A DNA stretch of 44,775 nt from Rhodospirillaceae bacterium (GTDB lineage: Bacteria; Pseudomonadota; Alphaproteobacteria; JAEULC01): the NCBI GenBank assembly GCA_023266845.1, contig JAHFPH010000001.1:1-44775 (forward strand), in the 5' to 3' direction. A program made the translations under genes and the position numbers. The notes beneath the pieces are model-generated. The model did not search any database. It had not been told where the DNA came from and saw only the letters and a list, made by a program, of their open reading frames with translations. Shown one piece after another: positions 41,618 to 44,383 of this stretch (positions are counted from its first letter, which is position 1; each line of letters begins with the position of its first letter).

Positions 41618-41701
41618 CCGCCACGGACCTGCGCGATCCCCGAACCCTGTGCTTGAACCGGGGCGAAACCACCGTGTAACGTGCGGCCCGGGGGGCGCGG
41701 A

Positions 41702-44383
41702 ATGGCGGCGCAGCAGAACTTCGACACCAGTCTTTTCAAGTACATCCTGCGCTATAGCTGGAAGGCGCAGATCTTCATCGTCATCGTGACGCTGGTCTCG
41801 CTGCCGTTTTACTACGCCTCGCTCGACGTTCCCAAGCAGATCATCAACAAGGTGCTGGACACCAAGCACCGCGACTACCTGCAGTCGCCCAAGTTCTTCG
41901 GCGTCGGGCTGGACCTGTTCCAGGGCGACAAGATCTGGCTGCTGGTGTTTTTCTGCTTCATCTTCTTTTGCTTCGTGCTGATCAACGGCGGTTTCAAGCT
42001 CTATATCAACGTGCTGAAGGGCAAACTGGGCGAGCGCATGCTGCGCCGCCTGCGCTACCAGCTCTACGACACTATCCTGCGCTTCCCGCTGCCGCATTTC
42101 CGCAAGACGTCCGAGGGCGAGCTGATCAACATGATCACCGCCGAGGTCGAGCCGGTCGGCGGCTTCATCGGCGACGCCTTCGTCACGCCGCTGTACCAGG
42201 GCGGGCTGCTCCTGACCGCGATCTTCTTCATCTTCATGCAGGACTGGAGCATGGGCCTGGCCTCGGTCGCGCTGTACCCGATCCAGGGCTACCTGATCCC
42301 GAAACTGCAGCGCAAGGTGCGCGCCTTGGGCCGCGACCGCGTGCGCGAGATGCGGAAAGTGAGCGAGCGCATCGGCGACACGGTCAATCTGGCGCGCGAA
42401 ATCCGCGCCCACCAGACCGGCGACTACGAACGCGCGGATTACGCCGACCGCATGGGCCGCGTGTTCGACATACGCTTCAAGATCTACAACCTGAAATTCT
42501 TCGTGAAGTTCCTCAACAACTTCCTGACCCAGATGACGCCGCTGATGTTCTTCGCGTTCGGCGGCTATCTGGTGATCCAGGGGCAGTTGAGCCTGGGCGC
42601 CCTGGTCGCGGCGCTGGCGGCGCAAAAGGACCTGCTTTCGCCGTGGAACGAATTGCTGAACAACTACCAGATCCAGCAGGACTCGCAGCAGAAATACGAG
42701 CAGGTCGTCACCGCCTTCAACATCGACGGCACGCTGCCGATGGAAAAGCCGATCGACCGCGTCGAGCCGTTGAAGGGCGAGATCGCCGCGCGCGACGCCA
42801 CCGTCACCGACGAGGGCGTGACGCTGCTGGAGCGCGTCAGCTTCGGCATGCAGCTGACCGAGCGGGTGGCCGTGGTCGGCGCGGGGTCCAGCGGCAAGGA
42901 TGTGCTGGCGCAGATGGTGGCGGGGCTGGTGCGGCCGTCGAGCGGCTCGTTGCGCATCGGCGGGCGCGATATCAACGAGCTGCCCTCGGCGGTGCTGGGG
43001 CGGCGCATCGCCTATGTCGCCGCGGATAGCGGGCTGATGACCGGAACGGTCGGCGACAATCTGCACTACGTGCTGAAGCACCGGCCGGTAAAGCCCGCCG
43101 ACTACGACCCCGGCGAGGCGGCGTTGCGCCGCAGCGCGCTGGCCGAGGCGGCGATCGCCGGCAACGCGACCGACGATATCCGCGCGGGCTGGATCGATTA
43201 CGACGTGTTGGGCGTGAAGGACGAAGCCGGGCTGAAACAGGCGACGCTGACGGCGCTGCGCATGGCCGACACGCTTGACGACGTGTACCAGCTCGGCCTG
43301 CGCGTCACCATCGACGTCAAGCGCCAGCCCGAGCTGGTGGCGCGGCTGATGAAGGCGCGCGCCGCGATGCGCGCACGCCTGGCCGACGCGGCCAACGCGG
43401 CGCTGGTCGAGCCGTTCGACCCCGCGGCGTTCATCATGAACGCCTCGCTGGCCGAAAACATGTTCTTCGCCACGGCCGCCGCCGCCGCGTTCGATCCCGA
43501 CAAGCTGGGCGAGAACGCCTATGTGCTGGCGGTGCTGCAGAAGACCGGGTTGGAAGACGAGTTCATGCAGATCGGGCTCGGCGTGCTCGGCAACCTGCTG
43601 GAATTGGCGGGCGACGGCGGCGCGGGCGGCGCGCTGCTCGCCGATGTCAGCGTCGTGAAGCTGGACGAGCTGCCGGACTACAAGCCCCTGGTCGACAAGG
43701 CCAAGCGCGACGGCGCCAAGGCGCTGGACGGCGAAGAGCGCGCGATGATCCTGTCGGTGCCGTTCAAGCTGGTGCCGACGCGCGAGCGCCATGTCGAAAT
43801 CTCGGACGCCTTCAAGGCCAGGATGCTGGAAGCGCGCAAGGCGTTCGCCGACGGTCTGCCGGAAAAGCTCAAGGGCAGCGTCGAGTTCTTCGACCCGGAA
43901 AAGTTCAACACGCAGTTGACGCTGCGCGACAATATTCTGTTCGGCAAGGTCGCGCTCAATCAGGCCCAGGCGGCGCAGCACGCCAACGCCATGATGGCCG
44001 ACGTGATCGCCGAGTTGGAATTGCACGACGCGATCATCGAGGCGGGTTTCGGCTTCCAGGTCGGCACGCGCGGCTCGCGCCTATCGGCGGCGCAGCGCCA
44101 GAAGCTGGCGGTGGCGCGCGCGACCCTCAAGCGCCCCGATTTGCTGGTGCTGGCCGAGGCCACCACGGCGCTCGATTCCGCGTCGGACGCGCGGGTGGTG
44201 GACGCGGTGTTGAAGGAATTCAAGGACAGGGGCGTGCTGTGGGCGGTGCAGAAAGCGTCGACCGCCAGGCGCTTCGACCGCGTCGTCGTGATGGCCGACG
44301 GCCGCGTGGCGGAAGAAGGCGCCTTCGCCGAGCTGGAAAAGAAGGAAGGCTCGGCGCTCTCCGCGCTGCTGAAGGCGGAATAG
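41702..44383 (+). CDS. ABC exporter with degenerate, internally duplicated ATPase domain
   Basis: This 893-residue protein has an exporter-type membrane domain (helices about 23-45, 78-100, 162-200 and 268-310), then an abnormal ATPase domain. Walker A is GAGSSGKD (393-400; Asp replaces Ser/Thr). The Q-loop reads AYVAADS (Gln lost). The signature is LSAAQRQ (794-800, for LSGGQ). Walker B is LLVLAEATTALDS (Ala818 replaces Asp; Glu819 kept). The H-loop position is Gln850. Walker A and signature are about 395 residues apart instead of about 110, because of an insertion with a tandem duplication (about 500-640 versus 660-800). It is likely an ATPase-deficient or regulatory transporter. The frame is intact, so it is not a decaying gene. 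The ATG at 41702 is preferred over a GTG at 41681. Confidence 0.88.
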   Translation: MAAQQNFDTSLFKYILRYSWKAQIFIVIVTLVSLPFYYASLDVPKQIINKVLDTKHRDYLQSPKFFGVGLDLFQGDKIWLLVFFCFIFFCFVLINGGFKLYINVLKGKLGERMLRRLRYQLYDTILRFPLPHFRKTSEGELINMITAEVEPVGGFIGDAFVTPLYQGGLLLTAIFFIFMQDWSMGLASVALYPIQGYLIPKLQRKVRALGRDRVREMRKVSERIGDTVNLAREIRAHQTGDYERADYADRMGRVFDIRFKIYNLKFFVKFLNNFLTQMTPLMFFAFGGYLVIQGQLSLGALVAALAAQKDLLSPWNELLNNYQIQQDSQQKYEQVVTAFNIDGTLPMEKPIDRVEPLKGEIAARDATVTDEGVTLLERVSFGMQLTERVAVVGAGSSGKDVLAQMVAGLVRPSSGSLRIGGRDINELPSAVLGRRIAYVAADSGLMTGTVGDNLHYVLKHRPVKPADYDPGEAALRRSALAEAAIAGNATDDIRAGWIDYDVLGVKDEAGLKQATLTALRMADTLDDVYQLGLRVTIDVKRQPELVARLMKARAAMRARLADAANAALVEPFDPAAFIMNASLAENMFFATAAAAAFDPDKLGENAYVLAVLQKTGLEDEFMQIGLGVLGNLLELAGDGGAGGALLADVSVVKLDELPDYKPLVDKAKRDGAKALDGEERAMILSVPFKLVPTRERHVEISDAFKARMLEARKAFADGLPEKLKGSVEFFDPEKFNTQLTLRDNILFGKVALNQAQAAQHANAMMADVIAELELHDAIIEAGFGFQVGTRGSRLSAAQRQKLAVARATLKRPDLLVLAEATTALDSASDARVVDAVLKEFKDRGVLWAVQKASTARRFDRVVVMADGRVAEEGAFAELEKKEGSALSALLKAE

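Follow-up and report, generated by a model that had tools for sequence, protein, structure and literature searches.

ATP hydrolysis is the defining trait of ABC exporters, and the gene considered here raises the question of what such a protein does once most of its ATP-site residues have gone. It lies in a stretch of 44,775 nucleotides from a Rhodospirillaceae bacterium, which was analyzed as a whole and is called the window below. The reading that we favor, with a probability of roughly one-half, is that the protein belongs to a class-wide family of pseudo-ATPase exporters or flippases of the glycan type, controlled by a cyclic nucleotide (cNMP) and powered otherwise than by their own ATP sites.

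The gene is a single open frame of 893 residues, running from an ATG at 41702 to a stop at 44383. The sole earlier in-frame start is a GTG at 41681, and ortholog alignments begin at about residue 5–8. The GC content at codon positions 1, 2, and 3 is 0.655, 0.385, and 0.925, respectively (window:41702-44383), and the whole length appears to be coding, since GC3 stays between 0.90 and 0.94 in every domain. The open and GC-typical frame given in the preliminary description is thus borne out, with no internal stop and with GC3 even along the gene. The Pfam match to the ABC ATPase domain, PF00005 (E 1.5e-16), is split into two stretches, and the order PF00664 then PF00005 is found in the window protein and in all 54 of the 54 family members compared with Pfam.

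ATPase motifs were scored by column alignment to a canonical exporter that the window also encodes (window:2290-4185). The motifs of this control read GKS, VPQ, LSGGE, DE, and H, and it retains 7/7 core residues. The window protein keeps two of the seven, the Walker A Lys399 and the catalytic Glu819, and the D-loop Asp825 is also retained (Table 1). The complete Walker A, Q-loop, signature, Walker B, and H-loop set of type IV exporters is absent from it. Five motif changes had been reported earlier (GKD, no Q-loop Gln, LSAAQ, the Walker B Ala, and the H-loop Gln), and all of them were reproduced in the alignment to the control; the retention of Lys399, Glu819, and Asp825 and the enlargement of the nucleotide-binding domain (NBD) had not been mentioned, nor had the Q-loop repeats, the glycosyltransferase and cNMP neighbors, the NBD-less sister family, and the TM6 charges described below.

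Table 1. Features of the exporter-like gene, with positions in the window
Feature	Position	Strand	Basis
CDS, pseudo-ATPase ABC exporter-like protein, 893 aa	41702-44383	+	Open frame; orthologs in 138/386 genomes
Transmembrane domain, residues 1-345, PF00664 (E 2.6e-26)	41702..42736	+	Pfam; long helices in AlphaFold2 model
TM6 motif K309-D310-xxx-P314-W315-x-E317, charges near-invariant; motif absent from the genome's canonical exporters	42626..42652	+	Family alignment
Degenerate Walker A GAGSSGKD (Lys399 kept, Asp400 replaces Ser/Thr)	42878..42901	+	Alignment to control
First Q-loop-like segment RRIAYVAADSGLMTGTVGDNLHYVL, Gln absent (A441 at its column)	43001..43075	+	Alignment
NBD insertion, residues 457-726 (~270 aa), mostly helical	43070..43879	+	AlphaFold2; absent from canonical exporters
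Second Q-loop-like repeat EPFDPAAFIMNASLAENMFFATA; family FDxxxYNxNATxAENLLFG	43409..43477	+	Alignment, hhalign
Third Q-loop-like repeat VEFFDPEKFNTQLTLRDNILFGKV	43880..43951	+	Alignment, hhalign
Degenerate signature LSAAQ, versus LSGG(E/Q)	44081..44095	+	Alignment
Degenerate Walker B LLVLAE (Ala818 replaces Asp, catalytic Glu819 retained)	44141..44158	+	Alignment
D-loop Asp825, conserved in 100/105 homologs	44174..44176	+	Alignment
H-loop position, Gln850 in place of His	44249..44251	+	Alignment

Incomplete ATP Sites throughout the Family

The 138 alphaproteobacterial genomes with an ortholog, among 386 sampled, usually carry one full-length copy, and most orthologs are 880–1,100 residues long. 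A scan of the collection gave 80 named loci, including Azospirillum, Inquilinus, Nisaea, Tistrella, Thalassobaculum, Sneathiella, Geminicoccus, and many MAGs, to which plasmid records add Rhizobium (143), Sinorhizobium (79), Ensifer, Ruegeria, and others. In a sample of the phylum (299 genomes), all 23 matches fell within Alphaproteobacteria; the collection scan also gave a few MAGs labeled Gammaproteobacteria or Anaerolineae, labels that are repeated as given and may reflect mis-binning. Members are annotated publicly as "ABC transporter ATP-binding protein" or "ABC transporter transmembrane domain-containing protein." No description of the family was found in the open-access literature, whether on ABC exporters of degenerate or pseudo type, on rhizobial locus tags, or on glycan exporters linked to cNMP. 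The homolog of Sinorhizobium meliloti is split into frames of 237 and 762 residues in the record of strain 1021 (NC_003078.1:841000-845400) and is one intact frame of 916 residues in strain 2011 (NC_020560.1:841000-845400), a difference due either to a mutation of the reference strain or to an error in its sequencing. The homolog is not the msbA2 gene of this species (SMb21191), which is a separate locus about 100 kb away. In R. etli CFN 42 the homolog is RHE_RS24195.

None of the 105 aligned homologs keeps all seven core residues; the number retained ranges from zero to five, compared with 7/7 in the control. The loss exceeds what chance would give, since every one of the 105 lacks at least two of the seven. 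The P-loop Ser/Thr is present in only 13 homologs, and in 72 an acidic residue (Asp or Glu) stands in its place. The Q-loop Gln is found in 26 and the H-loop His in 35. The Walker B Asp survives in 15 and has given way to Asn in 58; the second signature Gly, retained in 14, is most commonly replaced by Ala or Val. In the Rhodobacterales member from Ruegeria and similar sequences practically every motif has disappeared and the length is still full.

Other residues persist. The Walker A Lys is found in 60 of the 105 homologs and Arg takes its place in 31, the catalytic Glu at the position of Glu819 is kept in 62, and an intact Lys-Ser/Thr P-loop survives in seven; residual nucleotide binding is therefore possible. 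These residues form the basis of the main rival to our reading, namely that the protein is a nucleotide-dependent exporter with atypical sites, which would engage ATP through the Lys and Glu, slowly or as a sensor, so that the NBD acts as a switch responding to the ATP level. The near-invariance of the D-loop Asp and the strong conservation of the post-signature residues RQKLAIAR fit such a switch. The residue that should hold Mg2+, however, is most often acidic, placing a negative charge beside the phosphates, the Walker B Asp and the second signature Gly are the exception, and several lineages have lost the Lys and the Glu too while remaining full length. We regard an ATP switch as rather unlikely, although it is the competitor to be taken most seriously.

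An Enlarged Nucleotide-Binding Domain and a Charged TM6

The NBD spans ∼550 residues, as against ∼250 in canonical exporters, owing to a long insertion between the Q-loop and the signature. Two further copies of the segment after the Q-loop strand are found within the domain ("ENLLFG" and "DNILFGK"). Repeats two and three share homology across 62 columns (hhalign E 1.5e-11), and copy one, at the canonical position, matches each of them weakly. In the AlphaFold2 model the NBD is predicted with high confidence (mean pLDDT of the whole chain 84, pTM 0.79), and each repeat opens with a strand-loop-helix. In Foldseek the model aligned over its full length with TmrAB, MsbA, and PCAT1, at a target-normalized TM-score of ∼0.6; for TmrAB the E-value was 2.5e-18, the alignments covering ∼890–900 columns against chains of ∼580 residues.

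The window protein thus resembles the type IV exporters MsbA, TmrAB, and PCAT1 in the fold of the transmembrane (TM) domain, in that of the NBD, and in its PF00664 and PF00005 matches. In contrast to them, its family has lost the ATP-site residues throughout, it has an insertion of ∼270 residues with Q-loop repeats, and its TM6 is charged. Its score against the NCBIfam model for MsbA is 218 bits, with a cut-off of 602.

The charges of TM6 are nearly fixed. K309 is found in 103 of 105 homologs, D310 is Asp in 98 and Glu in seven, and E317 is Glu in 95 and Asp in five; in canonical exporters the three positions are mostly uncharged. The fair canonical set for this comparison, and for that with the sister family described below, is CTRL and L161–L164; the canonical neighbor T_L156 was disregarded, and some control rows are not exporters.

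The genome to which the window belongs also encodes a protein of 377 residues whose match is confined to the TM half and whose chain stops at the point where an NBD would start (L002:1195-2328; G000:C5:5660-6790). This NBD-less sister family was found in 33 of the 386 Alphaproteobacteria, all 33 of which also carry the pseudo-ATPase exporter, and it is missing from 105 of the 138 genomes with the exporter. The two families share K99, E148, R218, K265, W315, and an acidic residue at 317, most of which are absent from canonical exporters.

An ABC exporter fold that works without ATP has a precedent in the SLiPT family members SbmA and BacA, which have neither NBD nor ATP requirement, run on protons, and carry acidic membrane residues; an ABC ancestor from which the NBD was lost has been proposed as the origin of SbmA (PMC13316013). 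The NBD-less sister family resembles SbmA/BacA in architecture. The latter, however, belong to another TM sequence family and possess a glutamate ladder, whereas the window protein retains a pseudo-NBD and matches PF00664; no Pfam match to SbmA/BacA was obtained for the window protein or for the sister protein. Acidic residues in the membrane are also present in the window family, at 310 and 317 of TM6, and may or may not be counterparts of the glutamate ladder. The pseudo-ATPase family is therefore not a member of SbmA/BacA, as its NBD is kept and different models are matched.

Gene Neighborhood and Candidate Function

Genes neighboring the 80 named loci were clustered, and cluster representatives were identified by Pfam. 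Immediately downstream and in the same orientation, 63 of the 77 loci with room for it have a gene for a cNMP-binding protein of ∼150 residues; in six more loci, and also in Ruegeria, the cNMP domain is fused to the C terminus of the exporter. Its phosphate-binding cassette, GEIAILCDVPRTAT (the GExA...PRTAT pocket motif), is intact in 57 of 67. Some of the fusions (the C termini of L107, L081, and L112) carry a GGDEF-like domain after the cNMP domain. In L107 this part is a second degenerate enzyme domain of the same polypeptide; the match lacks the GGDEF letters, and synthesis of cyclic-di-GMP is not claimed for it.

Upstream and usually divergent are GT28-like and GT4 glycosyltransferase genes, often followed by more glycosyltransferases and a histidine phosphatase; in 52 of 74 loci it is the GT28-like gene that directly adjoins the exporter gene on this side, in divergent orientation. 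The GT28-like gene and the exporter each occur in 138 of the 386 genomes, and 134 genomes have both, a co-occurrence explained in part by shared ancestry, by which its p-value is inflated. An ABC exporter beside glycosyltransferases recalls the PglK-type flippase of lipid-linked oligosaccharides. PglK is an active ATPase, and the window protein scores 90.8 against the NCBIfam model for PglK, the cut-off being 1000. The order in R. etli is a peptide-type ABC importer, three glycosyltransferases, the exporter gene, and the cNMP protein. Such an importer (SBP, two permeases, and ATPase) is linked to glycosyltransferases and exporter in Azospirillum thermophilum, R. etli, and S. meliloti, which suggests uptake and export of related compounds.

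In the genome of the window the GT4, GT28, cNMP, and methyltransferase genes lie in their usual order on another contig (G000:C58; L152:1-3744) with no exporter between them, and the exporter gene adjoins typA, apart from this cluster. In the sister species, too, the exporter gene and the GT and cNMP genes are on separate contigs. The gene has therefore moved in this genus and yet been kept, as the rest of the cluster persists elsewhere without it; the cNMP domain with intact cassette, linked or fused to the exporter in relatives, is here linked to the glycosyltransferases instead. Elsewhere in the window, an AT-richer patch (window:37973-39489; GC ∼0.50–0.57) encodes an Imm26-like immunity protein beside a protein of 353 residues without a Pfam match, possibly a toxin-immunity pair on an island.

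On the reading that we favor, the protein would originate from a type IV (MsbA/P-glycoprotein-like) ABC exporter, and its NBD, with two extra Q-loop/helical copies, would be a pseudo-ATPase serving as a regulatory and structural platform and not as a motor. It would work with the divergently encoded glycosyltransferases, so that a glycan, or else a lipid or peptide in glycosylated form, is the likeliest cargo. Control would be exerted by the cNMP-binding protein encoded directly downstream or fused C-terminally, and the suggestion in the preliminary description that the exporter is ligand gated gains support, at the level of sequence, from this domain. Its own sites would probably not supply the energy by hydrolyzing ATP; the likeliest replacement would be either the proton-motive force, with the charged TM6 motif as its point of action, or downhill release, and the TM6 charges could also bind substrate instead of protons. 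The survival of the Walker A Lys and the catalytic Glu in many members, the separation of the window's own gene from the cluster, and the contribution of shared ancestry to the co-occurrence all count against this reading.

The tight linkage with glycosyltransferases and cNMP protein, together with the lost motor and the existence of an NBD-less sister family, would also suit a protein that does not transport at all and serves as a membrane scaffold or regulator joining the glycosyltransferases to the cNMP sensor. Selection, estimated by a simple counting method among three congeneric genomes, argues otherwise: the TM domain is the most conserved part of the protein (dN/dS ∼0.2, 87% identity within the genus), and near-invariant charges inside TM6 exceed what an anchor needs. 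A pure scaffold is unlikely in our view.

Heterodimeric exporters with one degenerate site, such as TM287/288, TAP, MRP1, and Pdr5, are well known, and one canonical site is kept in them (PMC7756269). Replacement of Walker, signature, and H-loop residues is common to these proteins and the window protein, which might accordingly be one half of a heterodimer, with an active half-transporter encoded elsewhere, or the NBD-less sister, supplying the good site or a second TM half. The presence of the exporter gene in every genome with the sister would accord with such pairing. Unlike the TM287/288-type heterodimers, however, the window protein has no linked partner half-transporter: no second exporter half is conserved beside the gene in the 80 loci or in the annotated loci of R. 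etli, S. meliloti, and Ruegeria. Neighbors of 640 residues in L067 and L079 were considered as partners and, judged by eye, are not ABC exporters. With no partner linked to the gene, a homodimer would have two degenerate sites; in a heterodimer, too, every composite site would be short of the P-loop Ser/Thr and the Walker B Asp or else of the signature Gly. The sister, absent from most genomes with the exporter, would bring no ATPase. The earlier proposal of an active partner subunit thus draws no support from the gene neighborhoods, and we consider a heterodimer improbable.

The motif losses of the window copy could suggest a decaying exporter pseudogene, a reading whose chance is now negligible and which the conservation data already refute, given a full-length open frame, like losses throughout the class, and a dN/dS of 0.36–0.38 for the gene, close to the 0.33–0.36 of the canonical exporter in the same three genomes. 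The dN/dS of the ATP-binding lobe is higher (0.57–0.75) and was rejected as evidence of relaxed selection, as the same lobe of the canonical control is also high (0.48–0.69). Intact motif sets, which would have pointed to decay of this copy alone, were searched for among the homologs and none was found. The purifying selection, the spread of the family, and its incomplete motifs together support, as far as sequences can, the initial description of the protein as a conserved pseudo-ATPase exporter. As to whether the substitutions themselves are conserved, motif loss is family-wide and selection purifying, but the exact substitutions vary and the residues lost differ by lineage.

An ABC exporter whose ATPase has been converted into a cNMP-controlled gate, which transports without ATP and has a sister branch without the ATPase domain, would be an undescribed kind of transporter. 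We put this forward tentatively, as a possibility for which the odds are on the unfavorable side; the case for novelty would be stronger if ATP-independent, cyclic-nucleotide-gated transport proved true. Were the ATPase indeed to have become a cNMP gate, the family would represent an extant stage between primary and secondary transporters. Pseudo-NBD and NBD-less forms stand side by side in it. As a class-wide family that includes Rhizobium, Sinorhizobium, and Azospirillum and keeps the whole architecture without a complete site, it would make a change of energy source in ABC folds directly testable, and the label "ABC transporter ATP-binding protein" is misleading for its members. In the plant symbionts among them, the family points to an uncharacterized glycan pathway, probably under cNMP control.
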